Positions 9,717-22,447 of a DNA stretch of 22,509 nt are shown piece after piece (within the stretch, counting starts at the first letter, position 1; each line of letters begins with the position of its first letter). The translations under genes and the position numbers were made by a program. This stretch comes from a virus, in the IMG/VR virus record IMGVR_UViG_3300045995_000322, positions 1 through 22,509 of that record; one strand, 5' to 3'. A model generated the notes under the pieces. That model was not told where the DNA came from. It did not search any database and saw only the letters and a list, made by a program, of their open reading frames with translations.

Positions 9717-10790
9717 CTACTCCTTCGTGAGGTGGTTGCGCGCGGCGTACACCGCGTCGACGTTGATGCGGGCCTTGGACTTGCCTCCCTGGTCAGGAGG
9801 CAGACTGCCGTCGATCTCGATGCGATCGAACTTCGCGGTCAGTGTGGTGAGATGGGCGCGGACCTCATCGAACGTCATCGCGCCCTTGATGTAGCCGTCG
9901 GCGAGCTCCGGGAATTTCGCCTTCCCGCAGACGGCGCGGATCTGCGTCGCCCTGGCGGACGCCTCCCCACGCGTGCTCCGCTCCTCCGTCACTCGGGCTT
10001 GCACTTGCTCGAGCGTCGCGCTGGCGGTAATGAGCCCTTCTGCCAGGTCAAGGCATCCACCCTCACGGCAGAGGCGCAGGACCTCCACGGCCGCCACAGG
10101 CTGCGGCGGATCGGCGGGCGGCGCGGGTTTCACGAGCAGCGCGTCGACGCGCGCGCGGTACTGCTCGGGGATAGTACCCAGCCGCGCCAACACCTCAGGC
10201 CGGAAACACGCGGTGACTTCTTTGCCATGCGCGATCGTCGTCGCGAGCCCGTTGGCGACTGCGTCGGTGGCGTTGAACCATGTCTCGGCCGCCATCATGG
10301 CCGACAGTTCCTCGGTGGTCTTGATCGAGACCCACCGATAGGTCGCAATGATCGAGTCGCGAATCGCATCGAGAATGTCGGCCATCTTGCGCATGACGGA
10401 TGCGTTGCCGATCTCGATGCCCTCGGGTTCATGAATCATCATCATCGCGTTGTCCGCGATGGTGACCGGCTGGCCGGCGCTGCTCACGATTGTGGCGGCG
10501 CTGGCGGCCAACCCGTCGATACTGGTTTCGACTGCCCGGCCGCGCTCGTCTCGCTCAGCGCGGAGTGCATTCGCGATCGCGCTGGCCTCAAAGACACTCC
10601 CCCCAGGTGAATTGATGTGAACCTTGATCACCTTGATCGACGCCGGCAGGGCCTTCAGGGCGGCGATGAACGTCGCGGCCGAGACCGCGTCGTCATTCCA
10701 GAAGGACTTGCCGATTTCGTCGTAGATGTAGATGTCGGCGACATCTTGCTCGGTCTTGTTTTCGATGCGGTACCACTGTCGTGGTTTCAT
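9717..10790 (-). CDS. ClpP-like prohead protease with C-terminal scaffold-like region
   Basis: 357 residues; the start overlaps the portal stop as ATGA. Residues about 15-190 are a ClpP/S14-type serine protease domain: oxyanion strand HINSPGGSVFEAS (58-70), nucleophile Ser97 in DGLAASAATIVSSAG, His120 in MMMIHEPEG, and a TWFNATDAVANGLA segment where the third catalytic residue normally lies (Glu169 appears at the place of the usual acid). Residues 200-357 have a Pro-rich linker (PAPPADPPQPVAA) and helical, charged sequence, as expected for a fused scaffold. It should act inside the prohead to cleave the scaffold and portal-associated proteins. Lambda uses an S49-type protease (gpC/Nu3) here; this phage uses the ClpP type, a common substitution. 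Confidence 0.92.
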   Translation of the reverse strand: MKPRQWYRIENKTEQDVADIYIYDEIGKSFWNDDAVSAATFIAALKALPASIKVIKVHINSPGGSVFEASAIANALRAERDERGRAVETSIDGLAASAATIVSSAGQPVTIADNAMMMIHEPEGIEIGNASVMRKMADILDAIRDSIIATYRWVSIKTTEELSAMMAAETWFNATDAVANGLATTIAHGKEVTACFRPEVLARLGTIPEQYRARVDALLVKPAPPADPPQPVAAVEVLRLCREGGCLDLAEGLITASATLEQVQARVTEERSTRGEASARATQIRAVCGKAKFPELADGYIKGAMTFDEVRAHLTTLTAKFDRIEIDGSLPPDQGGKSKARINVDAVYAARNHLTKE

Positions 10791-12346
10791 GCGGCCACCT
10801 TTCTGCGTCGATTATTCGCTTGCTCTTCGGCGGGCGGAGGCGACTCAGGCGGATCCGGCTCCTGTCCTGCCGCAGGGGCGCTCGACGCGTTCGCGGGCGT
10901 CCGTCCGTCCGAGTCATATTTCAAGCCAAGGCCATCGGCGCGCGCATTGTCCATGGCCTGCTCTTCATCGATCGCCTCGGCGTCGTCGCCGTATTCGCTC
11001 ACCGTGGCGCTGCGCGACGTCAGGCCTGCCCGGATCGCGGCCTTCTGCGCGTCGATGTCCTGCACCGGCTGGATGTACGGCACGCGCGGCGGCGTCCATT
11101 TGACGGCGGCCCAGGGCTCTGGGTTGACGAGATAGTCGAAGGGAATGGGCAGCGCACCCGAGAGGAAGACCCGATCGAGCCAGGCGCGCCACACGGGTCG
11201 GCAAAGGAACTGGGCCACAATGCTGTGTTGCCAGACCGCAATTCGCCCACGGAATTCGTTGAGCAGTACTCGCACGGTCCGGTCGTTCACGCCGCGCATG
11301 TCGCCCGTGAGCAGTTCGTAGGGCACGCCCGTCGCCGCCGCCACGCCATACAATTGCTGGCGCATGAAATCCGGATAGCCACGTGGTTCGGGCGGGTCGG
11401 AGAAGGTCACCTCTTCGCCGGGCGACAGTTCCTGGAAGATCCCAGGCTCCAGGCTCACGAGCGGTTTGTCGTTGAGCGTGGTGACTGCCTCACCGGTCAG
11501 GGGATGCAGCGTTTCCGCGTCACCGACGGGCGACGGCCGCGTGACGAACCCGACGAACATGTTGGCGAGCTGCTGACGGAGCAACGTCGCATCGTCGAAC
11601 TTGTCGAGCTCGTAGAGGTCGATGAGGGCTTGGGTCAGGTGCGGTAGCCCACGTAGTTGCCCGGGCCGCAGCGGATCAAACAGATGTACGACGCTCTCCG
11701 CCGGCACGCGGCGAAGCTGCGAGGCATCGAAATCGTCCAGCTCAGGTCGGGACGGATGAAAGTAGTACGCGACCCGGCGGCCAAGAGGATTGAACTCAAT
11801 CCCCGCCCGGATGCGCACGCCGCCACCATAGGCCAGTGTGTGGGCATGAGGGCAGAGCTCCGGTTCGAGCACTTGAACCTGGAGCGGAACGACGAGCCCA
11901 TCCTCGGGCAGCCGCGGACGCAGGCGCGCAAAGACCTCGCCCGCTTCGAACCACGCGCGCACGGCCTGTCTCTGTTGCCCATACCAGTCGAGTAGGCCAT
12001 CCGCATCACTCTTGTCAGTCCACCTCAGCCACAAGGCCTGGATCTGATTGCGGAACTGCGGATCGGCCGCTTGCGAGAGGGGTTTGATACCGGTCCCGAC
12101 GATATTCTCGACGAGCTTGTCGATCGCGCCCTTCGCGTACCCGTCGTTACGGACGGCCGCGCGGGAGCGATCGCGCAGCGTGGTCAGGTTGGCGAGGATG
12201 GCTTGATTGGCAGAGGACGTCGGCGCGCGCCAGCCAACCGTGCGCCGCGTCTGCGAGCCGGCATCATAGAGGGCGCTGTTCCGGACAGCGGGAGCCGCTC
12301 TCCCGATGCGTCGAGCCCAGCGCTGCACGCTTGCGATCACGCCCAT
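10787..12346 (-). CDS. Portal protein, lambda gpB family
   Basis: 519 residues, close to lambda gpB (533). The start ATG at 12344-12346 comes 2 bases after the gpW-like stop. N-terminal YDAGSQTRRTVGWRAPTSSA and 'LRDRSRAAVRNDGYAKGAID' are hallmark lambda portal segments; 'VENIVGTGIKPLSQ', 'GRRVAYYFHPSRP', 'VVHLFDPLRPGQLRGLPHLT' and 'GVPYELLTGDMRGVNDRTVR' follow in the usual order. It forms the dodecameric vertex through which terminase packages DNA. The C-terminal tail is Pro/Glu-rich and basic (ending NNRRRKVAA). Coupled with the protease gene by a 4-base overlap. Confidence 0.95.
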   Translation of the reverse strand: MGVIASVQRWARRIGRAAPAVRNSALYDAGSQTRRTVGWRAPTSSANQAILANLTTLRDRSRAAVRNDGYAKGAIDKLVENIVGTGIKPLSQAADPQFRNQIQALWLRWTDKSDADGLLDWYGQQRQAVRAWFEAGEVFARLRPRLPEDGLVVPLQVQVLEPELCPHAHTLAYGGGVRIRAGIEFNPLGRRVAYYFHPSRPELDDFDASQLRRVPAESVVHLFDPLRPGQLRGLPHLTQALIDLYELDKFDDATLLRQQLANMFVGFVTRPSPVGDAETLHPLTGEAVTTLNDKPLVSLEPGIFQELSPGEEVTFSDPPEPRGYPDFMRQQLYGVAAATGVPYELLTGDMRGVNDRTVRVLLNEFRGRIAVWQHSIVAQFLCRPVWRAWLDRVFLSGALPIPFDYLVNPEPWAAVKWTPPRVPYIQPVQDIDAQKAAIRAGLTSRSATVSEYGDDAEAIDEEQAMDNARADGLGLKYDSDGRTPANASSAPAAGQEPDPPESPPPAEEQANNRRRKVAA

Positions 12347-12348
12347 CG

Positions 12349-12861
12349 TCAGAAGCCCTTCGTACTCACGCCATAGGTCTGTTTCGGCCGGGTCCGCGCG
12401 CCGACTACCGCGAGCTCCTGGAGAATGTCCGCCTCGACCTGCCGCATCTCCGCATCCGAGGTGTAGGTCACCGAACGGTCGGCGAACTGGACGGTGCGAA
12501 TGCCCCGCAGGCGGGAGGCACGGATCGCGGCGAGGGCGGCCGCGTTGTAGGTCGTGGCTGGCGCAGGCGCCGATGGCGGCGCCGTCACGATGGCATCAGT
12601 CGCCCAGGCAAAAGACACGGGCACACAGTTCGTCGCGAGAAGCAGGAGCCCGATCGTCCCGCCGTTCGTGTCCCCGCGCGAGAAGTTGTATCGGTACTGC
12701 CCGTGCCCGAGATCGTCAACGGTGCCGCCGGCAGCGCTCTGCGCTCCGCCGTCTTTCGTGAGCCATGCCGCCACGGTGGCGCCCGTGACCGGCGCGCCGC
12801 TCGTCACGTCGACGAGCATGAAGAAGACTTCCTGGCCCGCCAGGTTTCGATAGAGGGTCAA
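12349..12861 (-). CDS. gpW-like head-tail connector with extra N-terminal domain
   Basis: About 170 residues if started at the TTG at 12859-12861, which overlaps the upstream stop (TTGA) and has GGGGA 7 bases ahead; a GTG at 12882 has no ribosome site. The last 65 residues (AALAAIRASRLRGIRTVQF, then ADRSVTYTSDAEMRQVEADI) match the gpW family, small connector proteins that bind the portal exit. Lambda gpW is 68 residues, so the first roughly 100 residues are additional: a beta-rich segment (VFFMLVDVTSGAPVTGATV, FSRGDTNGGTIGLLLL) then an Ala/Pro linker. gpW directly before the portal is the lambda order. An internal GTG near the linker might yield a standalone gpW form, but no strong ribosome site is seen. 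Confidence 0.75.
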   Translation of the reverse strand: MTLYRNLAGQEVFFMLVDVTSGAPVTGATVAAWLTKDGGAQSAAGGTVDDLGHGQYRYNFSRGDTNGGTIGLLLLATNCVPVSFAWATDAIVTAPPSAPAPATTYNAAALAAIRASRLRGIRTVQFADRSVTYTSDAEMRQVEADILQELAVVGARTRPKQTYGVSTKGF

Positions 12862-14879
12862 TTGGTATTCCCCGATATGCACACGAGGGCCGGCACGGAA
12901 ATCCTGGGTTCTGCTGGGCCGATGCTTTCCGCACTCAAAAGCAGCGTGGCAAGGCCCGACCCGACGGGCTCGATCTGCCCGGCGCCGGAGGCGGCCAAGA
13001 CCGCGGTCGCATACCCGCCGCCGGCCGTGAGCGTCTCGCCACGGCCGACAAGATCCAATCCGAGAACAGCACTCCCGTCTCCCTCCGGAGTCCCGAGCGA
13101 CGGAGCGTCGCCTTCACCGGTCGCGTCGAGTGTGAGCACCGCGATCGCGGATCCGTAATCGGCGTGTTTCCCAACGCCCGCCAGGCTCAACGCGAGCGAG
13201 GGCACGCCTGTCCCGGCCACGGCAATACGACCCTCTGCCTGCACGGCCAGCACGAGGGCCGACGCACCGTCCCCCTCAGCCCCGCCCACCGTTGGCGCGT
13301 CACCGACCCCTTCCGCTGACAAGATGAGCGAAGAGGTGCCGTGACCGGAGGCGACGAGGCGGCCCTGACCGGTCGCCGCGAGGATCAGTGGGGGTGTTCC
13401 GGCTCCAGACCGGACAGAAACACCGGTCCCCGTGACGCCGAGCGTGAGCGAGCTCGACCCGTGCCCATACGCCGCCTGCTGGCCCGCACCAACCGTGCTC
13501 AGCGAGAGCCCGGTCGTGCTGGAGCCGTAGGTGACGCGCTTGCCGGCGCCCGCCGCGCCGAGCGTGAGCGCCTCGGCCCCGTGTCCTGATTCAACCGTTG
13601 TCCCGGCGCCCGTCGCAGCCAGGACGAGCGCCGCCGTGCCCGCCCCTTCCGACATGGGCACTTCGGGCGCCTCTCCCACCCCGCTCGCGCCCAGCGTCAC
13701 TCCCGGTGCGCCAGCGCCCTGCGCGATGGTCGTCCCCGTGCCGCTGGCCCCGAGCGTGAGCGCAGGCACTCCGGAGCCACTCGGGATTGACAAGACTGGC
13801 GCCGCGCCCTCGCCCGTGGTGGCCAGTGTCAGGCCGGGCGCCCCGCCGCCCGAGGGGATCTGCTTGCCAGCGCCCGTCGCGCCGAGCGTCAGGCAATTCG
13901 AGCCGGTGCCGTAGGCGGTCTGTTTGCCGGTGCCCGTGGACGACAGCGTGAGCGCGGGAGCGCCGACGCCGGATCGCATAGAGACACCCACGCCGGTCGT
14001 GCTCAGCGTCAGGCCGGGTGTGCCGTAGCCGTTGGCGACCGTCGCGCCTTGGCCTGTGGTGGACAGCGTGAGCGCGGGAACCCCGTAGCCGTTCGGGGGC
14101 GGCACGGCAGGTGCTTGGCCCTGACCAACCAGAGCCAGCGTGAGGGCAACGGCCGCGTAGCCAGACTTGATGGCCTTCCCAACGCCCGTCATGCCGAGCG
14201 TGAGAGCAGGGACCCCGTAGCCTCGTGGTTGATACAGCGAAATCGTCCCCGAGAAGGTGACGAAGGGGCAGTACTGGTTCGTGCTCGCGTCGTCAACCGG
14301 AAGGTCGTTCGCGCCGGTGTCCCCGTATTCCAATGTGATCGTACGAGAGGTCACTGCCGCGTTCTTACGCGAGCCGATGGTGATCTCGATGTAGTCGCCG
14401 TCGGTCGGCGTCTGGGTCGTGAGTGAGATAGTGACCGACTCGGCCGTGTCGCGGAACTGGTTGTTGGTGAGACTCGTCCGCAGCTCCGGCGGATTCGCGT
14501 CCACCAGGTCCGCATAGGTCGGCGCCAGCAGAACCGACCGCTCAGTCCCGTCGGGTTTGAGAATCCGCGCCCCGATCGCAATCGTGTTCTGAGAGGCAGC
14601 GTTCGATTCCGACCCGCGCATCTGCCCAACGATGGTCCCGCTGATCTGATTCCCTGCGACCGGTCCGTACAGGAACCGCATGAATGGGAGGGTCGCGACC
14701 ACCGTCCCGCTGGCGGCAGCCACGGACGCGAACGCCGAGGACGCCTTAGTGGTGGCGCCCTTCTTCGTGACGTTCCCGGTGACAGGTGTCCCCCAGCCCG
14801 TCGCCCAGTTCGACGGGGCAATCGCCGCGGCAACGTTCTGGAGATAGATCTTGGTCGGCACCTGGTACGCTGTTCCCAA
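12858..14879 (-). CDS. Repeat-rich virion or fibre protein (21 copies of a 20-residue Gly-rich repeat)
   Basis: 673 residues from a TTG at 14877-14879 (first residues MGTAYQVPTKIYLQNVAAAI); a GTG at residue 7 is an alternative. Residues 1-219 form a non-repeated region (ILKPDGTERSVLLAPTYADL, TRTITLEYGDTGANDLP-like segments) that looks like a beta-rich virion domain. Residues 220-661 are tandem units of the form GxGxxxLTLxxTGxGxxxxx. The protein has no transmembrane helix or signal peptide. Regular Gly/Ser/Thr-rich repeats suggest a beta-solenoid or extended fibre shaft. It is tightly linked to the 114-residue tail-type gene upstream and the gpW-like gene downstream. The role as fibre, decoration or adhesin is inferred; I do not recognise a named family. 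Adjacent glycosyltransferase genes make glycosylation of its Ser/Thr repeats a reasonable guess. Confidence 0.8.
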   Translation of the reverse strand: MGTAYQVPTKIYLQNVAAAIAPSNWATGWGTPVTGNVTKKGATTKASSAFASVAAASGTVVATLPFMRFLYGPVAGNQISGTIVGQMRGSESNAASQNTIAIGARILKPDGTERSVLLAPTYADLVDANPPELRTSLTNNQFRDTAESVTISLTTQTPTDGDYIEITIGSRKNAAVTSRTITLEYGDTGANDLPVDDASTNQYCPFVTFSGTISLYQPRGYGVPALTLGMTGVGKAIKSGYAAVALTLALVGQGQAPAVPPPNGYGVPALTLSTTGQGATVANGYGTPGLTLSTTGVGVSMRSGVGAPALTLSSTGTGKQTAYGTGSNCLTLGATGAGKQIPSGGGAPGLTLATTGEGAAPVLSIPSGSGVPALTLGASGTGTTIAQGAGAPGVTLGASGVGEAPEVPMSEGAGTAALVLAATGAGTTVESGHGAEALTLGAAGAGKRVTYGSSTTGLSLSTVGAGQQAAYGHGSSSLTLGVTGTGVSVRSGAGTPPLILAATGQGRLVASGHGTSSLILSAEGVGDAPTVGGAEGDGASALVLAVQAEGRIAVAGTGVPSLALSLAGVGKHADYGSAIAVLTLDATGEGDAPSLGTPEGDGSAVLGLDLVGRGETLTAGGGYATAVLAASGAGQIEPVGSGLATLLLSAESIGPAEPRISVPALVCISGNTN
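12897..14222 (-). repeat. Tandem 60-base coding repeats (about 21 units)
   Basis: Codons 220-661 of the overlapping gene consist of 20 full units plus a degenerate last unit. Fifteen of the full units are 20 residues. Units 2, 7, 9, 15 and 18 are 24 residues, each carrying an inserted segment around an AP dipeptide after the second Gly pair. Unit consensus is GxGxxxLTLxxTGxGxxxxx. At DNA level the 60-base period is visible in the recurring 'agcgtgagcgc' and 'ggtgtcgct'-like stretches. Sequence between units is diverged rather than identical, so the array is old rather than freshly expanded. Confidence 0.88.
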
Positions 14880-14897: not shown

Positions 14898-15239
14898 CTA
14901 CGCCGTGATCTTCGTGGTCGTCCCCTTCAGCGTGTACTCGCCCGCGGCGTTGGCGGCCTGGTCACCCGTCAGGATGGCCCCGCACTTGAACACGTCGCCA
15001 GAGTTCAGCCACACGCCGAAGTACGTGACGGACTGGCTGGGCGTCATGCCGGTAAACGCCACGTCGGCATTCAGCACGCGCTCACCGCTGGCGTTCGCGG
15101 CGTTGAACGACGCCGCCTGCTTGCCTCCGGCCGTGATGTAGCTGGCGCCGGTTGTGCCCGGGTCGCCGCTGTGGAGACTGACCCGATCGACCGTGATGCC
15201 GTCGAGCGCCTGCTGCCGTGCGACAAGTGCAAAGCCCAT
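14898..15239 (-). CDS. Short phage tail/virion protein
   Basis: 113 residues from the ATG at 15237-15239 (MGFALVARQQALDGITVDRV), supported by GGGAGG 7 bases upstream (15247-15252). An earlier ATG at 15254 overlaps that ribosome site and is rejected. The sequence runs SLHSGDPGTTGASYITAGGK, then 'AASFNAANASGERVLNADVAF', 'VTYFGVWLNSGDVFKCGAIL', and ends 'YTLKGTTTKITA'. This opening (SLHtgdPGttG...) and the VTHxGvW-type strand are familiar from small tail-fibre or tail-sheath-associated phage proteins of about 115 residues. It stops 18 bases before the repeat protein start and is probably its partner in the virion. Function beyond 'virion-associated' is not shown. Confidence 0.75.
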   Translation of the reverse strand: MGFALVARQQALDGITVDRVSLHSGDPGTTGASYITAGGKQAASFNAANASGERVLNADVAFTGMTPSQSVTYFGVWLNSGDVFKCGAILTGDQAANAAGEYTLKGTTTKITA

Positions 15240-15302
15240 GAACGTGCCTCCCATCAGACGATCGAATAGACTGAGACTGCTCCCCGCTCGATCAACACAA
15301 TG

Positions 15303-15376
15303 TGGTTGCGGGGGCCGGAGTCGAACCGGCCTGACAAGGTTATGAGCCTCGCGAGGAACCGCTCCTCCACCCCGCG
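15303..15376 (-). tRNA. Initiator-type tRNA (anticodon CAU), CCA encoded
   Basis: A 74-base cloverleaf on the minus strand. The acceptor strand CGCGGGG pairs with CCCCGCA except for a C1-A72 mismatch, the hallmark of bacterial initiator tRNA(fMet). The D stem GAGG/CCTC gives the A11-U24 pair also typical of initiators. The anticodon loop CTCATAA contains CAU, with stem CGAGG/CCTTG; two of the three diagnostic GC pairs are kept (G30-C40, G31-C39) while the first is A29-U41. The T arm is GCCGG-TTCGACT-CCGGC; the discriminator is A and CCA follows in the DNA. Differences from E. coli: D loop two bases shorter, variable loop 4 bases, U at position 21. Co-oriented with the phage genes. Function would be initiation-type tRNA during infection, or it may be a captured host gene. 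Confidence 0.93.
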
Positions 15377-15444
15377 TCCAAGTGAGAATTAAACAAGCTG
15401 GACTGCATGTCTATTTATTGACCCAAAAAATCCCCCGAGGCGTC
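15377..15444 (-). promoter_or_regulatory. AT-rich intergenic segment upstream of tRNA, possible promoter
   Basis: This 68-base gap is clearly more AT-rich than the rest of the window. On the minus strand it contains a TAGACA (15408-15413, one mismatch to TTGACA) and TTTAAT (15388-15393, one mismatch to TATAAT), but with only 14 bases between them, so a sigma-70 promoter is possible yet not compelling. It is the best candidate for a separate transcription start for the tRNA and the tail genes that follow. Just after the preceding stop a run of six Ts follows a GC-rich stretch (15425-15440), but only a weak 3-bp hairpin can be drawn. Confidence 0.3.
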
Positions 15445-16392
15445 TTACGGCGCATGGACGCTCAGGGTCTTCTTCAGCACGGTCTGGACGGATTGATCGG
15501 TGGCATTGGCCTTGCGGCAGTAGGCGTCGTAGACCGGTAATGGCAACCGGACATTGGTCTTGATCGTCTCCGGTCCACGCGGGCGCCCGCGGCGCCGCAG
15601 CGGGAGTACGGCCCGAGCCATGGGCGCGGCGGGTGTTGAACGCGGCGGAGGCGTGACCTTGGGCGCCGCGGCCGTCAACGCCGCCCGTTCGAGCCCGCGC
15701 CAGATCCGTGTCAGTCGCGTGAGGGTGGCCAAGGGTGATCCATGAAAGATCGCCCGCCGCAGTCCGCTCTTGACATGCACGATCCGGGTCAGCGCGGGAT
15801 CGAAGTCCTGCCAGGACGCATCCTCGCAGTTCCATTCACGGCACGGGAGCGTGGCGAGCTGCACCCCAGATCGATCGCCCTGCTCGAGGAGGAAGCCGAG
15901 GGCGGCCTGGTTGATGCCACCGTACCGCTTGCGCCACACCTGGTGGCGCTGGTGGTCGGTCAACATGCGGCGGTTCTCCTCGGCCCATTGCCTGAGGAAC
16001 GCGCGCGATCGCGCGTTCACGCGCACGAAGACGACGCCGGCATTGATCGGAAAGGGAAACCCCTTCGCCCGCGTCGTATAGCCCAGGTCGAAGGGCTGCT
16101 CCCAGATAGGGTCGAGGGAGCCGACAATCATCGTGTCGGTGTCGAGTAGGGCGATACAGTCACCGTCCCGCGCCTCCGTAATCGCGCGCGCCCAGAAGTC
16201 CAGCTTCTGGGTGTTCGCGGCGTACGCCGAGGTGAGTGGGGCCATGGAGCACGATTTCGGCACGATCTCCTGGACCTTCACCTGCCACTCCGGGCAGCGT
16301 TGCCGCGCGGAGAACTCGAGCACGCGCGCCAACCGTGGCCACTGGTCGCCGGCGCCGGCGAAGTAGCACGAGATCAGACGCGGGGCGTTCAC
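15445..16392 (-). CDS. GT-A glycosyltransferase with C-terminal AT-hook-like and RHH-like tail
   Basis: 315 residues from a GTG at 16390-16392 overlapping the upstream stop (GTGA), with AGAGG 5 bases ahead; the frame runs open to 16506 but that part overlaps the previous gene. Residues 1-225 are a GT-A domain of glycogenin-like type: CYFAGAGDQWPRLARVLEFS, the DTD metal/nucleotide-sugar motif at 84-86 (CIALLDTDTMIVGSLDP), NAGVVFVRVNARSRAFLRQW (117-136) and a late HVKSGLR. After a Pro/Ala linker come RRRGRPRGP (266-274), an AT-hook-like motif, and residues 276-310 (TIKTNVRLPLPVYDAYCRKA onward) which follow the ribbon-helix-helix pattern of CopG/Arc proteins. Such a tail is unusual for a glycosyltransferase. 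An internal ATG at 15621 could give a 58-residue RHH protein, but no ribosome site is seen. Target unknown. Confidence 0.8.
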   Translation of the reverse strand: MNAPRLISCYFAGAGDQWPRLARVLEFSARQRCPEWQVKVQEIVPKSCSMAPLTSAYAANTQKLDFWARAITEARDGDCIALLDTDTMIVGSLDPIWEQPFDLGYTTRAKGFPFPINAGVVFVRVNARSRAFLRQWAEENRRMLTDHQRHQVWRKRYGGINQAALGFLLEQGDRSGVQLATLPCREWNCEDASWQDFDPALTRIVHVKSGLRRAIFHGSPLATLTRLTRIWRGLERAALTAAAPKVTPPPRSTPAAPMARAVLPLRRRGRPRGPETIKTNVRLPLPVYDAYCRKANATDQSVQTVLKKTLSVHAP

Positions 16393-17570
16393 GCTCGCCT
16401 CTTCACGGCGCCGGCAATCGCGCCGACAGCGTTGACGGATCGCTGGTTGATGAGTGCGCGGTATGTCGACTCGGCCAGCCAGACACGCGGCAAGACGCAG
16501 AACCATGGCTTGACCGCCGCCAGCGCCCGCACGAAGGCGAGCCGTTCGTCGCCGCCGTCGCAGTCCGCGCGCCAGTGTTCCGTGAACATGCGCCCGGCCC
16601 CGTTGTCTCGCACGAAGAGGAGTTCATGCGCATAAACGGGGATACGCAGGTCACGGACGATCGCGCGCGTCCGCTCCCGGTCCTCCGATGTGCCGATCTG
16701 CTCTGCCAGGACCTGGTCTGAGGAGAACGGGGCGGCGACATCCCACTTCGCCAGCAACTCAAAGCCGACCGGGAGCAAATCCCATGGCAGGTTCCTCGCG
16801 TCAGCGACGAACACCGTGCGGGGCCACGGTGCGGCCCATCCTTGGGACACGGCCACACCGAACCCAGCAGCGGCAGCCCGCTTTCTTGCTGGCGGATCCT
16901 CCTGCCGCAAGACGACGCCAGCCTGCACAGACGGAACCGGCTGGAGGATGGGACGCGCCGCCGCCGGATTGCCGAGCGTTTCTCCGCGGCGTCGATGAAA
17001 TTCCGCCATGCCGACTTTCTCGTCATCGACAATCCGCACGTCAAAGAGCCGGCCGAGTGTGGCCGCCATCGCGTTCAATTCTTCGTACACGATGCCGCTC
17101 GGGGATCGACTGTGCTGCGGGGAATAGTCGTGGCAGAGCAAGAGCCTGCCCTCGCGCAAGTGGTCGAACCAGGGCAGGTCGCGCGCAATCCGATTGTGAT
17201 CGCCGTCCACAAAGACCAGGTCCCAGGTCTCGGTGTTCCGAGCCAGGTAGTCCCACGAGGCTTCGACGCGCACCGCGATGTTCCGGCAGCCCTCTCGCTG
17301 CCAGAATCGCTCGGCGGCAGACGTCGTCAGCGACGTGATCCGTGCGAGCGGCGCGGCCCGCGACAACAGATAGCCGGAACTCCCATGCCCGGTCCCGATC
17401 TCCAGGATCTGGGCGCCCGCGCGGTTCTGCTCACGGGCGAGCATGAACAGCGCCAGCCTCTGGTAGTCGAGGAGCTGCTGCTTGACCGCCGGCGGCCGTG
17501 GCATCTCTGGACACTGGCGAGCCAAGGTGCGGCACAGCGTGGACGCGTCCGCCTCGAGGTGTGGCGTCAT
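16389..17570 (-). CDS. Methyltransferase fused to degenerate GT-A-like domain
   Basis: 393 residues; ATG overlaps the upstream stop (ATGA) and GGAGGT lies 6 bases ahead. Residues 30-190 form a class I SAM methyltransferase: motif I EIGTGHGSSGY (57-67), DLVFVDGDHNRIARDL (117-132) and LLLCHDYSP (143-151), the type of fold found in Methyltransf_24. Residues 250-370 resemble the GT-A domain of the neighbour: TVFVADARNLPWDLLPVGFE occupies the place of the 'vfvDADTll..dl..lfell' motif, followed by AKWDVAAPFSS, IPVYAHELLFVRDN and FTEHW. The DxD is not intact (VADAR), so the second domain may be inactive or use another site. Coupled both sides in the operon. Substrate unknown; a sugar or a sugar-modified acceptor is inferred from context. 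Confidence 0.75.
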   Translation of the reverse strand: MTPHLEADASTLCRTLARQCPEMPRPPAVKQQLLDYQRLALFMLAREQNRAGAQILEIGTGHGSSGYLLSRAAPLARITSLTTSAAERFWQREGCRNIAVRVEASWDYLARNTETWDLVFVDGDHNRIARDLPWFDHLREGRLLLCHDYSPQHSRSPSGIVYEELNAMAATLGRLFDVRIVDDEKVGMAEFHRRRGETLGNPAAARPILQPVPSVQAGVVLRQEDPPARKRAAAAGFGVAVSQGWAAPWPRTVFVADARNLPWDLLPVGFELLAKWDVAAPFSSDQVLAEQIGTSEDRERTRAIVRDLRIPVYAHELLFVRDNGAGRMFTEHWRADCDGGDERLAFVRALAAVKPWFCVLPRVWLAESTYRALINQRSVNAVGAIAGAVKRRA

Positions 17571-18028
17571 TTGCGCACCTCCAAGGTGGCAATGATCGAT
17601 GAGCTGGAATGATTCAACTGCGGGGCCTCACGGATCTTCCACTTGCGGGGGGTATAGAAGGCGTACGCCCGCCCGCGTGTCGTCTCCGGGTCGAATTGAT
17701 CCAGGCTGTGCAAACTGAAGAACCATCGGTGGGTCGGGTCCTGATGTGAGACATCCGATTGCCAGTAGGGCAACTTGATGAAGAGTTGCCCACCGGGCCG
17801 AAGCAAGCGCCAGCACTCGTTGAGCGATTGCACGAGGTCGATGCGCAGATGCTCGAGGACGGCCCGCGCGACGATGAGCTCGAAGCTCCGATCGGCCCAC
17901 GGCCAGGGCAGAGTATTTAGGTCCCAGGTCACGGCGATCTCTGGGCGATGCTTCGTCAGGTCGTGGTTCACCGCGTTGCCAATCGGCCTGTTGCCCGCTC
18001 CCAGGTTCAAGATGGTGGGACTCGCCAT
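17567..18028 (-). CDS. Class I SAM-dependent methyltransferase
   Basis: 153 residues, ATG at 18026-18028, 21 bases after the upstream stop. Motif I ILNLGAGNRPIG (6-17), then NHDLTK (21-26), FELIVARAVLEHLR (49-62), LLRPGGQLFIKLPYW (75-89) and SHQDPTHRWFFS (94-105). The last pattern (h.DPtH...f) is familiar from small methyltransferases linked to polysaccharide or sugar gene clusters. It is short (most are 180-220 residues) but has all expected core motifs. Lies between glycosyltransferase genes and overlaps the next gene by 4 bases, so it probably methylates a sugar made or transferred by them (inference). Confidence 0.85.
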   Translation of the reverse strand: MASPTILNLGAGNRPIGNAVNHDLTKHRPEIAVTWDLNTLPWPWADRSFELIVARAVLEHLRIDLVQSLNECWRLLRPGGQLFIKLPYWQSDVSHQDPTHRWFFSLHSLDQFDPETTRGRAYAFYTPRKWKIREAPQLNHSSSSIIATLEVRK

Positions 18029-18049
18029 GGTTTCTCACGCGACAGGCGA

Positions 18050-18787
18050 TCAACGTAATCCATGGGTCGCGCCCCATCGCTTCACAATCGCCCAGGCTTC
18101 CTGGCTGTCGATGCGCCCAGGGAGCTTCCCCTCCCAGCGTCGGGCCTCGCACGGGTAGTGCATCACGCCCGCGGTCTGGACGGTCGGGGTGTACTTCGGG
18201 AACGTGTTCCATTCGTTGCCGAGGACCCACATCTTGAGTGGCTCCGCGTACAGCGCCCGAATCAACGCGCCTTGATCGCGCTGGGCATGGACTTCCCACT
18301 CGGCCCGCCATCGGCGCATGAACCGCTCGATCGCCGGGCAACGCCGGAAGGCCCAGACACCGCCGTTGAACTGGACCGCGTAGAGCGTCCCGACCGCCGT
18401 CGCGACTTGCCGGAATTCCTTCAGGTTGTTCTTCCGCTGGAACGAATGGAGCGTCTCGCCCACGTCGCGGCAGATCACGAATTCCCACCCGTCCTCGACC
18501 CATTGGAAGAGCGAATAGACCGGTGCCACGAGCTCCGTATCCGCGTCCAGGTACAGCACGGACTGCCAGGCCGCGGGGACCAGCTCGTACGCCCGCAGCT
18601 TCGCGCGACGTCCGCCGACGTCGGTGTCGGGCTGGACGATGAGCACATCCTCCGGGCCGATGGCCTTTGACGCACAGACCGCAATCGGGATGTCCGGCAT
18701 ATGCTTCTTGATGCTCGCCATCAGTCGGAGCGCGCATCTTCGGGCGGGGTCGCCGAAGGCGACAACGTAGATGCCGCGCGTGCTCAT
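18050..18787 (-). CDS. GT-A glycosyltransferase (glycogenin/GT8-like)
   Basis: 245 residues from the ATG at 18785-18787 (MSTRGIYVVAFGDPARRCA), overlapping the upstream stop (ATGA); the frame runs further but into the previous gene. N-terminal IYVVAFGDPARRCALRLMAS, strand IPIAVCAS, then AAWQSVLYLDADTELVAPV with the DAD motif at 81-83, IRCD-like VICRDVGE, FNGGVWAFRRCPAIERFMRR and WVLGNEWNTF. This is the order of a GT-A nucleotide-sugar transferase. It probably moves a hexose to an acceptor using UDP-sugar (family knowledge). It is the second of a run of sugar-modifying genes. No signal peptide or membrane segment is evident, so the protein is cytoplasmic. Confidence 0.85.
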   Translation of the reverse strand: MSTRGIYVVAFGDPARRCALRLMASIKKHMPDIPIAVCASKAIGPEDVLIVQPDTDVGGRRAKLRAYELVPAAWQSVLYLDADTELVAPVYSLFQWVEDGWEFVICRDVGETLHSFQRKNNLKEFRQVATAVGTLYAVQFNGGVWAFRRCPAIERFMRRWRAEWEVHAQRDQGALIRALYAEPLKMWVLGNEWNTFPKYTPTVQTAGVMHYPCEARRWEGKLPGRIDSQEAWAIVKRWGATHGLR

Positions 18788-19776
18788 GGGGCCTTGGCTC
18801 CGAACGCCTGAACGAAGCCCGCTGCATGCCCGGCACACCAGGCCTCGATCGTGTGACCTGCCGTGGCGGCGCGGAGCGCCTCGCGGTTCACCGGAGCGGA
18901 TGGAAAGGCCGCGCGCTCGAGCGCCACAAGCAGACCCGCGCGATCGCCGCGTGGGTATCGGTGGATGCCCGGCACGTCGGGCAACTCGTCAACGATACCG
19001 ACGCCCGTTGGAATGACCACCGACACCCCGCAGGCGAGCGCTTCGAGGACGGTCATCGGACCGCCTTCGACACGGCTCGGGCAGACGAGCACGTTCAAGC
19101 CCTGATAGAACCGTGGCATCTCTCGCCAGCTCAATCGCTGGATCGGCACAGGCCAGCCCCGCCCGCTGGCCGTCCATTCGAGACGGCGGCCGAGCGGGGA
19201 GGCGACGAGGCCACGGGCGAGGTCTTCGCCCTTCCGAGCGTTCTTGTAGGTGAAGCCGCTCAACCCGATCACGGGGCGAGGATGGCGTGGCGGCTTCGCG
19301 ATCGTGAACCGGTCCCGCTCGACCGGCAGCGGCGGTCGGATCGTCGGCCCGAAGGTTTGAAGCGGTTCGGCATACAGCCGACACATGGCCACGCGCAACC
19401 CGACGCGGCGCGCGATCTCGTCATACAACCGCGCCTTGCCATTCCCCGGAGGTTCTTCCTCGCGATGGGTAAACAGCGACGCCGTTGGTCCCTGTGGCCA
19501 ACGGGAGAAGAGCTGCGACTCGAAGTACCCCATGAGGTAGTACACGTCCGTCGCCGCGCACGGCGCCGCGCTCAAGGTCCAGCCGAGCCCGTCAGCCAGA
19601 TACCGCGCGAAGCGAGGAAGGACCCGATCGTCCTTCCAATTGCGGCACACGATGTTGACGCGCAGGGACTGGAGGTTCGGAGGTTCCAAGAATGCAACGC
19701 CCCCTGCGGCGCCAAGGCCGCGAGTGGGCGTGCTGGTGGGCCGATCGCGCGGAGGAACGCCGCACCAAGGCGGCAC
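18784..19776 (-). CDS. GT4-like glycosyltransferase
   Basis: Up to 330 residues from a GTG at 19774-19776; this start has no ribosome site and falls in an inverted repeat. A TTG at 19687-19689 (then EPPNLQSLRVNIVC) with GGGGG upstream gives 301 residues and may be the true start. Features: RVNIVCRNWKDDRVLPRFA, ATDVYYLMGYFESQL, PVIGLSGFTYKNARKGEDLA and the GT-B donor site VCPSRVEGGPMTVLEALACG with the E-x7-E pair at 237 and 245, then VGIVDELPDVPGIHRYP. This is a GT4-type retaining glycosyltransferase. The N-terminal half is shorter than usual for GT4. It is the first gene of the sugar cassette after the terminase block. Confidence 0.8.
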   Translation of the reverse strand: MPPWCGVPPRDRPTSTPTRGLGAAGGVAFLEPPNLQSLRVNIVCRNWKDDRVLPRFARYLADGLGWTLSAAPCAATDVYYLMGYFESQLFSRWPQGPTASLFTHREEEPPGNGKARLYDEIARRVGLRVAMCRLYAEPLQTFGPTIRPPLPVERDRFTIAKPPRHPRPVIGLSGFTYKNARKGEDLARGLVASPLGRRLEWTASGRGWPVPIQRLSWREMPRFYQGLNVLVCPSRVEGGPMTVLEALACGVSVVIPTGVGIVDELPDVPGIHRYPRGDRAGLLVALERAAFPSAPVNREALRAATAGHTIEAWCAGHAAGFVQAFGAKAP

Positions 19777-19806: not shown

Positions 19807-19992
19807 CTAGACGGAGTTTACCATGTCCCCGCGCGTCCGGGGATGTTCCTCCGCGCGAATACGTTCTTTGATCTGAATGCCCTTGACCTTGCCCAGATGA
19901 ACATCGAGCGTGAGAGACCCCGTCCGGCCCTCGCTCAGAAATGCGAGCAGTCGGCGCCAGATCGCCGCGGGGATCGGAGGGGCGTCAGTCAT
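19807..19992 (-). CDS. Small protein, DUF2292/YezD-like pattern
   Basis: 61 residues, ATG at 19990-19992 overlapping the terL stop (ATGA). The sequence RLLAFLSEGRTGSLTLDVHL followed by GKVKGIQIKERIRAE fits a helix, then a beta-hairpin ending in a basic strand. I see the pattern 'GsvtitvhdGkvvqie..ekiR', which is what I know from the YezD-type DUF2292 family of small proteins. The similarity is by eye. In lambda the gene after terL is gpW (68 residues), but this protein does not look like gpW; the gpW-like gene is 7 kb further on. Function unknown. Confidence 0.6.
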   Translation of the reverse strand: MTDAPPIPAAIWRRLLAFLSEGRTGSLTLDVHLGKVKGIQIKERIRAEEHPRTRGDMVNSV

Positions 19993-21908
19993 ATCTTGAG
20001 ATACGAGCTGCGCGTACTCCGCCGCGCCTCGGTTGCCGGTGCCATCCGCGTCGGGGGTTTCGAAGCCACTGGCGGCTGCCCGGTGCCCGCTCCAGGCGGC
20101 GGCGCCGCGGCCAGCATGTCTGCCATCTGTCGAATGTTCGGGTTCAAGAGGCGGTACGCGGCCAGCGCCAGGACGGCCGTGTCAAGCGCCTCGTTTTGAT
20201 CGCGGTCCAGCACCCAGACGGAGTGTGTCGCGATCCCACCCTTGTTGTAGCGCGTCTCGCGATGCTCCGCACAGAGCTGGGCGAAATACTCCTCGTCGAC
20301 CAGGCCAGGAAAGTGCATGTAGCCCGGGCCTGGCGCCGCCAGCGAGAGTGCCGTCATGACGTCAGCCTTGGCGTCGTCAACGTTGATCGGCCACAGACGC
20401 ACCGGCCGCGGCGATCGTCCGTACCGCTTCTCGGACGGCTTCCCCACGACCGGCTCACCACTGCGCCCGGCGTACCCCTTCGTCGCGAAGAAGCGACGTG
20501 CCTGATACGCGAGCACGAAGTCGTAGACTTCCTCGGTCGCGAAACCGCTATCGATGCAGGTGGCGTGTATCGGGAGTTGATGCCCAGAGGCGTGCTGATA
20601 GCGACGCTGCAGCGCCTCGAGAAGCGCGGCGCGCGCCTCGGGCTGTTTCGGATTGCCTGGCACCGTCCGCCAATCCACCACCCACCGCTCCGCGCCTGGC
20701 CCCCACGCGAGGACCTGCAGCTCGAAACGGTCCTCGTGCACGTCGACCCCGGCCGTGAGCACGGGCGCGGCCGCCGGGACTTCGACGTCGTCGCCGTAGG
20801 ATTCCCGACGCGCGAGCAAGATGTGAGCCTCCATCCGCGCGCCGCGGTCTTCCCAGCCTTCGGCGAGTGAGGTGTTGATGAAGACGCGGAGGTTTTCTCT
20901 CCCCCTCGCGCGCGCGGAGAGCCACTTCTCGACGAGCCTCTCGAGCGAGACGCCGAGCGTGGAGATCATTTCGGGGACGTGGAAGCCGACCAGGCCCGCT
21001 TCCTTTGGGATTGCCGTGGGTTGCCAGTCCCCGAGCGTGACCATCGCGCGTCGTTCCGGCTCGCCCATCAACGCGCCGCAGCCGCCATGGTCTTCGCTTG
21101 GGCAGGCCAGCCGCGCCGTCGCGGGATCGTCCCCCTCATAGACGACGTGAAAATGCCCAGGCGCACTCCACGTGATCCAGTCGCGACGACCGCACTGGGG
21201 ACACGGCACGACATATTGCCGCTGGTCGCTCCGCTCATAGAGGGTGTCGATGCGGCCGCCCTTCAGGGTCGGGGTCGACACGAAGAGCACGAGCGCGTCG
21301 TGAAAGGTCCTGGTGCGATTGCGCAGCAGATCCGCCGGGTCACCCTCGTCGCCGACGACCGGCGGGAACCGGTCGACATCGTCGCCGATCGCCAGGCGCA
21401 CGGCGCGCCGGGCAAAGGTGTTCGGGGTGTTCGCTCCCCCGAGCGCGAGAAATCCGCCCGGGAACATCTTGAGTGAGAGCGTGCTCTCCCCTTCGTGGGA
21501 ACCGCGGGGCTGCCGCTTGTCGCGCACGACGGCACTGAGCGCCGGCGTCGAACGGATCATGTCGCCGAGGCGCTCCTTGCTCCATTCCTCAGCGACCAAC
21601 GCCGTCGGCTGGACGAAGAGAATAGGGCAGGGGTCGTACTGGATGAAGTACCCGAGGATGTTGTGGAGTGCTTCGGAGCCCCCGAGTTGCGCCGCCTTGC
21701 GGACCGCAATCGTCCGGACGCCCGGCTCGTGGACGGCGTCCATGATGCCGCGCAGGTAGGGCGTGGCCTCGGTTCGCCATCGACCGCCGCGCGCGCCGCT
21801 CGATTCGGGCAGCACGCGCACTGCGTCGGCCCATTGGCTGACCGTCAGGGCCGGCGGAGGCGCCGCGGCCGATGCCCACCCGGCGACGAGCGCGGCCGCT
21901 TCCATCAT
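19989..21908 (-). CDS. Terminase large subunit, lambda gpA family
   Basis: 639 residues from the ATG at 21906-21908 (MMEAAALVAGWASAAAPPPA), with GGAAGG upstream and an ATGA overlap with the small subunit; a frame to 22076 exists but lies inside that gene. ATPase domain: Walker A-like IAVRKAAQLGGSEAL (68-81), Walker B-like LAIGDDVDRF (172-181), coupling LFVSTPTLKG (208-217). Zinc-type cysteines at 236, 239 (CPQC), 269 and 277. The nuclease domain has Asp389 in TAGVDVHEDRFELQV, Asp453 in CIDSGFATEEVYDF and the late NEALDTAVLA Asp. This is the packaging motor that cuts concatemers and drives DNA into the prohead through the portal. The C-terminal tail (about 50 residues) is Pro/Ala-rich and basic. 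Confidence 0.96.
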   Translation of the reverse strand: MMEAAALVAGWASAAAPPPALTVSQWADAVRVLPESSGARGGRWRTEATPYLRGIMDAVHEPGVRTIAVRKAAQLGGSEALHNILGYFIQYDPCPILFVQPTALVAEEWSKERLGDMIRSTPALSAVVRDKRQPRGSHEGESTLSLKMFPGGFLALGGANTPNTFARRAVRLAIGDDVDRFPPVVGDEGDPADLLRNRTRTFHDALVLFVSTPTLKGGRIDTLYERSDQRQYVVPCPQCGRRDWITWSAPGHFHVVYEGDDPATARLACPSEDHGGCGALMGEPERRAMVTLGDWQPTAIPKEAGLVGFHVPEMISTLGVSLERLVEKWLSARARGRENLRVFINTSLAEGWEDRGARMEAHILLARRESYGDDVEVPAAAPVLTAGVDVHEDRFELQVLAWGPGAERWVVDWRTVPGNPKQPEARAALLEALQRRYQHASGHQLPIHATCIDSGFATEEVYDFVLAYQARRFFATKGYAGRSGEPVVGKPSEKRYGRSPRPVRLWPINVDDAKADVMTALSLAAPGPGYMHFPGLVDEEYFAQLCAEHRETRYNKGGIATHSVWVLDRDQNEALDTAVLALAAYRLLNPNIRQMADMLAAAPPPGAGTGQPPVASKPPTRMAPATEARRSTRSSYLKI

Positions 21909-22447
21909 GCGGCCGCCTTCCGCTTCGTCGAGCGCTTCAGATCCGCCAGTGTCTTCCAGCTCGCGATCTCCGTCAGGACCTCCCGACAGAGCGCAGCGAC
22001 CGGGCTCTCCAACTCGTGCGTGATGAGCCCGGCTTCGATGAGGCGGCGCGGGAGGGACCGGATCTTGGCGGCCCAACTCTTCGTGTAATGCTGACCCGTG
22101 AGAAGCACGGTTTCGCGTGAGACAAGCTCGTGGCGTCGCTCGAGCAACCGCTGCTCGTTCAGCTTCGCGGCCGCCTCATAGGCCCGAGTCTGCGCGATGG
22201 CCTTCTTATCCTGGCCCTGCGTGTTGCGCCACCACGCGAGGCACTCGACGGCATCGTAGACGCTCTCCTTCCCAAGTCCGCCGCGCGTGATCGTGGACAT
22301 GCCCGCGCGACTGTAATCCGAGATGGTGTCAGGGTGAACCCCGACCAATTCGGCGAGCTGGAGCCGGTTGACGTGCCGCCACGCGGTCGGATTGCGCGCC
22401 TTCGGACCGGCTGCCGCCGCCGTGTTCTTCCTGGCTGGTCGTGTCAT
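21905..22447 (-). CDS. Terminase small subunit, Nu1-like
   Basis: 180 residues, ATG at 22445-22447; upstream sequence to 22509 shows no clear ribosome site or promoter. After a basic leader, residues 25-55 (HVNRLQLAELVGVHPDTISD) form a winged helix-turn-helix like that of Nu1, followed by VYDAVECLAWWRNTQ and a long charged helix (AYEAAAKLNEQRLLERRHEL) as in phage DNA packaging Nu1 proteins. It binds the cos/packaging site and positions the large subunit. The immediate overlap with terL and its place as first late gene are as in lambda. A cos site would be expected to its right, outside the window. Confidence 0.88.
   Translation of the reverse strand: MTRPARKNTAAAAGPKARNPTAWRHVNRLQLAELVGVHPDTISDYSRAGMSTITRGGLGKESVYDAVECLAWWRNTQGQDKKAIAQTRAYEAAAKLNEQRLLERRHELVSRETVLLTGQHYTKSWAAKIRSLPRRLIEAGLITHELESPVAALCREVLTEIASWKTLADLKRSTKRKAAA

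Follow-up and report, generated by a model that had tools for sequence, protein, structure and literature searches.

A linear viral record of 22.5 kb (22,509 nucleotides, hereafter the window, meaning the whole stretch analyzed), a contig fragment from a tailed phage, carries one tRNA gene with the anticodon CAU, placed between a putative glycosyltransferase gene and the gene of a virion protein. A sequence-only reading had described it as a diverged initiator tRNA carried by a phage. This raises the questions whether the gene encodes an initiator tRNA, whether it belongs to the phage, and which role it could have among late structural genes.

Identification of an initiator-type tRNA

The gene was called as tRNA-Met(cat) by ARAGORN with the exact bounds 15303-15376 on the minus strand and is the sole tRNA gene of the window (Table 1). 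A scan of the local stretch with the Rfam tRNA model RF00005 yielded 46.5 bits (E 1e-8; cut-off 29). This local scan was relied on because the scan of the whole window at the gathering cut-off printed no match; it scored above the cut-off, as did the family search. The cloverleaf is the minimum-energy fold of the RNA, with -34.4 kcal/mol versus -29.0 +/- 3.1 for shuffled sequences. The tRNA is 74 nt long with the 3' CCA encoded in the gene, and reads CGCGGGG U G GAGG AGCGGUU CCUC G CGAGG CUCAUAA CCUUG UCAG GCCGG UUCGACU CCGGC CCCCGCA A CCA. It has a D loop of 7 nt, U21, a variable loop of 4 nt (UCAG) and the T loop UUCGACU. All features read from the letters alone (C1.A72, A11-U24, A29-U41, U21, CCA, short D and variable loops) are present in this sequence, and the proposed fold was borne out by the ARAGORN call, the RF00005 score above the cut-off and the initiator signature.

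Table 1. Features of the window around the tRNA gene.
Feature	Position	Strand	Basis
Large terminase (TerL), GpA type	19989..22031	minus	phrog_15, E 2e-205; GpA ATPase and nuclease Pfam domains
Sugar/methyltransferase cassette: glycosyltransferase group 1, second glycosyltransferase-like ORF, two methyltransferases	16389..19776	minus	Pfam Glycos_transf_1, Methyltransf_11, Methyltransf_24
GT3, putative glycosyltransferase-like protein with C-terminal extension, upstream of tRNA	15445..16506	minus	ORF; sequence reading and context only
Element GTCAATAAATAGACA, candidate late promoter/operator, intergenic	15408..15422	minus	31 nt upstream of tRNA, just after GT3 stop
tRNA(CAU), initiator type, CCA encoded	15303..15376	minus	ARAGORN; RF00005; identity elements; cloverleaf minimum-energy fold
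Virion (head) protein gene g15254	14898..15254	minus	phrog_240 head protein, E 8e-13
Repetitive virion structural protein g14879	12858..14879	minus	phrog_19041, E 3e-16
Head-tail adaptor Ad1	12349..12882	minus	phrog_2545, E 6e-12
Portal protein	10787..12346	minus	phrog_21, E 2e-103

The identity elements were compared with those of bacterial initiators. Position 1.72 is an unpaired C1.A72 of the bacterial initiator type, position 11-24 is A11-U24 with the purine at 11 and the pyrimidine at 24 that mark initiators, and the anticodon CAU lies within the loop CUCAUAA, as in bacterial initiator tRNA(fMet). Formylation by Fmt is determined by an unpaired 1.72, A73, G2-C71, C3-G70, G4-C69 and A11-U24 (PMC9976931, PMC7949028). 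The minor determinants G2-C71, C3-G70, G4-C69 and A73 are all found in the window tRNA, so that every formylation determinant named in these two papers is present. Two of the three GC pairs of the anticodon stem are kept (G30-C40, G31-C39), and the first is replaced by A29-U41. This missing G-C pair need not argue against an initiator, since cellular initiators with A29-U41 exist. An assignment as elongator tRNA(Met) or tRNA(Ile2) was rejected: these have a paired 1-72 and pyrimidine-11/purine-24, whereas the window tRNA has C1.A72 and A11-U24. The window tRNA shares 72% identity with the tRNA-fMet of Caulobacter phage CcrSC, but only 56% with the elongator tRNA-Met of the same phage. With its complete set of formylation determinants, the initiator type that had been proposed is well supported.

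Divergence from cellular initiator tRNAs

Initiators with A29-U41 occur in the genome sample (L305-L307 and L311 among others), and a strict pattern for them matched exactly in 61 of 299 Pseudomonadota genomes. The carriers named are on plasmids or chromids mainly of Azospirillum, Ensifer, Rhizobium, Paracoccus and other Alphaproteobacteria; the sequence was read for Azospirillum thermophilum. No literature on A29-U41 in rhizobia was found, and the view that this pair is normal in alphaproteobacterial initiators is based on the sequences compared here. A D loop of 7 nt is likewise normal in a second class of cellular initiators (L305, L308, L314). The off-type features of the window tRNA are U21 and a variable loop of 4 nt that includes G48, together with G57 and C59. 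Thus the description of the tRNA as diverged holds for U21, the 4-nt variable loop and G57, but not for A29-U41 and the short D loop, which are ordinary in cellular initiators. The replacement of A21 by U21, G48 instead of a pyrimidine (with loss of the Levitt pair) and the 4-nt variable loop could weaken the core of the molecule at a cost in stability.

A plasmid-borne initiator tRNA(fMet) of A. thermophilum shares with the window tRNA the acceptor stem, the anticodon loop, C1.A72, A11-U24, A29-U41 and the encoded CCA. Overall identity is 78.5%; in the window tRNA the D loop is two nucleotides and the variable loop one nucleotide shorter, the 13-22 pair is flipped, and U21, G57 and C59 differ. 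Among 398 Pseudomonadota genomes, in a cellular comparison set dominated by this phylum, no initiator was more than 79% identical to the window tRNA, the best reaching 79%. A host copy in a mis-assembled contig was therefore rejected, as phage genes also lie on both sides; the same two findings support the earlier view of the gene as phage cargo.

The pattern of the differences is informative. Compared with eight distinct cellular initiators, which are related to one another so that the counts are not independent, 4 to 6 stem pairs differ in each case, and all 38 of these 38 differing pairs are still standard pairs in the window tRNA. The acceptor stem and the anticodon loop are unchanged relative to the eight, and changes are found in the D, T, variable and lower anticodon-stem positions. 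Because every stem difference keeps pairing, this divergence points to selection for function as a tRNA, and neither to decay nor to a copy of the host gene.

Genomic setting of the tRNA gene

Along the minus strand the genes are ordered TerS, GpA-type TerL, sugar/methyltransferase cassette, GT3, tRNA, head protein, repetitive virion protein, head-tail adaptor, portal, protease, decoration protein, major capsid protein, and neck and tail genes. The tRNA is separated from GT3 by 68 nt and from the head protein gene by 48 nt, all on one strand. The flanks are as the sequence-only reading had described them, with the glycosyltransferase/methyltransferase cassette upstream and virion genes downstream. 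The cassette is syntenic in two further sequences, L012 and L083. No Pfam or PHROG match was found for GT3, which has relatives of 39-54% amino acid identity in phages, several of them between TerL and portal. By eye, its C-terminal extension (VRLPLPVYDAYCRKANATDQSVQTVLKKTL; 15445-15560, minus strand) resembles a ribbon-helix-helix DNA-binding tail, and similar tails or separate small genes are present at this place in relatives.

The 15-base element GTCAATAAATAGACA between GT3 and the tRNA occurs as a single copy in the window. It recurs with one base changed in L083 (9747-9761), also directly after GT3, where it directly precedes the adaptor gene; the conserved form is GTCAATAAATNGACA. Neither a sigma-70 consensus promoter nor a terminator was found in the window. 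Judged from these two sequences, GTCAATAAATAGACA may serve as promoter for the virion genes; the tRNA would then come first in this block.

The position of the tRNA exactly between two functional blocks, on the same strand and with short spacers, would also suit a processing landmark, at which cleavage by RNase P/RNase Z detaches the virion mRNA from the RNA of the sugar cassette. However, neither initiator identity elements nor an encoded CCA would be required for this purpose, and relatives of the same gene order manage without a tRNA, which makes this explanation most improbable. An effect on the choice of start codons had also been considered on account of GTG and TTG starts in nearby genes. 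For TerL, the major capsid protein, the adaptor gene and g8241, better Shine-Dalgarno sequences lie before an in-frame ATG; several GTG/TTG starts remain possible, but the premise of this idea appears weak.

Sporadic presence among relatives

Portal relatives (66-75% amino acid identity) keep TerL, GT3, adaptor and portal, and often parts of the cassette. In those covering the region, the tRNA is absent from the terminase-to-portal site, and a search through the full records of portal relatives (up to 73 kb) revealed no tRNA. Nor was a tRNA found near relatives of g15254 (up to 82% amino acid identity) or of GT3, and a linkage of the tRNA with a neighboring gene was rejected on these grounds. 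The g15254/g14879 pair has another place in L083, ahead of the sugar cassette. As it is missing from portal relatives and from relatives of the genes on either side, the tRNA is, by these comparisons, a sporadic insertion, with or near g15254/g14879, in the often-rearranged region between terminase and portal. None of the relatives carries the tRNA, so this phage group does not require it.

L083 is the contig CAIXRL010000296.1, binned in an Eisenbacteria MAG, with up to 80% amino acid identity to window genes, and it is the sole close prophage-like match; for the other portal relatives 56% is the maximum, and most are Pseudomonas matches of about 50%. It is probably a phage contig, for which a host assignment from the Eisenbacteria bin is unsafe. 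The TerL of the window is nearest to those of Roseobacter phages (40%).

Sporadic presence at a site of module reshuffling, as seen from the moved g15254/g14879 pair, would be expected of a captured attachment site or a decaying host tRNA, a functionless passenger of recombination in this variable region. Yet the gene is complete and not a 3' fragment, no integrase gene was found in the window, the best cellular source has 79% identity and the changes preserve pairs throughout. The tRNA lies between GT3 and the head gene, with no integrase among the families found in the window, whereas attL or attR would have a tRNA gene or 3' fragment beside an integrase gene or at the host junction. A passenger is thus very improbable, and the suggested origin as an integration target finds no support, given the missing integrase, the sporadic presence, the encoded CCA and the full cloverleaf. 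Both a relic and a mere site of RNA processing are less probable than a working initiator or a replacement for that of the host.

Initiator-type tRNAs in other phages

The sequence-only reading had regarded a phage-borne initiator tRNA as unusual. This was not confirmed, as such tRNAs are common: 298 INPHARED phage records, some of them short or probably bacterial, match a cellular alphaproteobacterial initiator query, including phages of Mycobacterium, Caulobacter, Arthrobacter, Rhizobium, Agrobacterium and Sinorhizobium. Many more were recovered by pattern in IMG/VR, where three patterns matched at least 119 stretches (some at contig edges, which represent attachment sites or host flanks), 74 stretches and at least 118 stretches, respectively. 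Nine tRNA-fMet genes have been reported from phage-related sequences of S. meliloti (PMC11476347), single tRNA-fMet genes from phiLM21-like prophages (PMC12429752) and fMet tRNAs from a huge phage (PMC10747093). By sequence, the window tRNA is a new example of already recorded, widespread phage initiator tRNAs.

The closest tRNA among annotated phage records is a tRNA-Met(CAU) of Mesorhizobium phage vB_MseS-P1 (L082:6210-6284), with about 80% identity. It too is the sole tRNA in the stretch examined and has a short D loop, a TTCGA T loop and an unpaired 1.72, but it differs in A1.A72, G11-C24 and its location in the early region. This tRNA is unannotated and lies on the same strand within an ORF annotated as a transcriptional repressor (gp13). 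Since an initiator-like tRNA lies inside this ORF, the repressor annotation may be doubtful. Sinorhizobium phage phiLM21 and the phiLM21-like prophages of S. meliloti (PMC11476347, PMC12429752), all alphaproteobacterial temperate phages, also carry an initiator-type tRNA(CAU); theirs, however, is a 77-nt form located before the terminase genes, with G1.A72 in phiLM21. The initiator tRNA annotated in the isolated Caulobacter phage CcrSC differs from the window tRNA in belonging to a tRNA cluster of a 317-kb genome and in its weaker acceptor end (U1).

The IMG/VR pattern that matched at least 118 stretches places no constraint on the acceptor stem, which therefore provides an independent test; 72 distinct tRNAs were obtained among the matches listed. 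In these 72, position 1.72 takes 11 forms, with 60 mismatches, eight U-A, four G.U and no G-C or C-G, while positions 2-71 to 7-66 are paired in nearly all cases. In a larger set, again among the matches listed, 1.72 is unpaired in 87 of 107 initiator-type tRNAs versus 8 of 333 other tRNAs of the same loci (Fisher p 4e-62, which is nominal as the rows are related). Of the 72 tRNAs, 51 have U-A or A-U at the place of the first of the three GC pairs and only 18 have G-C there, and the anticodon loop reads CTCATAA in 52 (both among the matches listed). ARAGORN found a single tRNA in 51 of 80 sampled loci, the loci being fragments. These counts support a retained initiator function and speak against escape by the anticodon loop as a general reason for carriage.

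This bears on the idea that the tRNA replaces a host initiator that is cut, acetylated or degraded during infection, by VapC, AtaT-type toxins or general breakdown, and is different enough to escape. VapC and AtaT are described as acting on initiator tRNA in work cited in PMC10264068 and PMC6293099, and the D, T, variable and lower anticodon-stem positions of the phage copy are indeed changed. The anticodon loop CTCATAA, however, is the site of anticodon nucleases and is unchanged, as in most of the phage tRNAs counted above, and no repair or antitoxin gene was seen in the window. A replacement of this kind is therefore unlikely, although among the alternatives it competes most strongly with a role in supply.

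Nine IMG/VR matches to a pattern for the D arm of the window tRNA included only three tRNA genes, which are not close overall. These three (L410:6603-6676, L415:4090-4163 and L416:454-527) are near-identical tRNA(CAU) with a GAGG/CCUC D stem and GGUU loop like those of the window, but with A1 and G37, and each is adjoined by a tRNA-Gln. Nine further environmental phage initiator-type tRNAs have D loops without GG (e.g. AGUAGUA) and G55 (UGCGAAU and similar) at the position expected for pseudouridine-55, which suggests an altered contact between D and T loop.

Proposed function

The intact cloverleaf, the initiator elements, the pair-preserving divergence, the phage location and the occurrence of the same features in many phage tRNAs indicate that the window gene is probably a working phage-encoded initiator tRNA, which adds to the supply of fMet-tRNA for initiation. 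The low RF00005 score and the divergence of more than 20% with U21, G48 and a 4-nt variable loop were counted against this, as were the absence of the gene from relatives and the failure to find a consensus promoter or terminator. The tRNA would be transcribed together with the virion gene block on the same strand, released by the tRNA-processing enzymes of the host, and then charged with methionine by its MetRS and formylated by its Fmt. It could thus provide an extra pool of fMet-tRNA late in infection, while structural proteins are made in bulk.

A broader proposal is that phage-borne initiator tRNAs, including that of the window, form a large specialised class, in which the initiator function is kept while changes affect 1.72, the first of the three GC pairs and the loops of the D and T arms. 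Such phage-tuned tRNAs would compete with or outlast the host initiator and perhaps shift which messages are initiated, a scenario that we consider distinctly unlikely.

The usual explanation of phage tRNAs by codon compensation cannot apply here, because an initiator tRNA reads no elongation codon. A widespread phage initiator tRNA that stands as a single gene thus lends itself well to testing other explanations, such as supply, replacement after attack on host tRNA or control of initiation. The diversity at 1.72, with pairing mostly avoided, constitutes natural evidence on the requirements of formylation and P-site selection.
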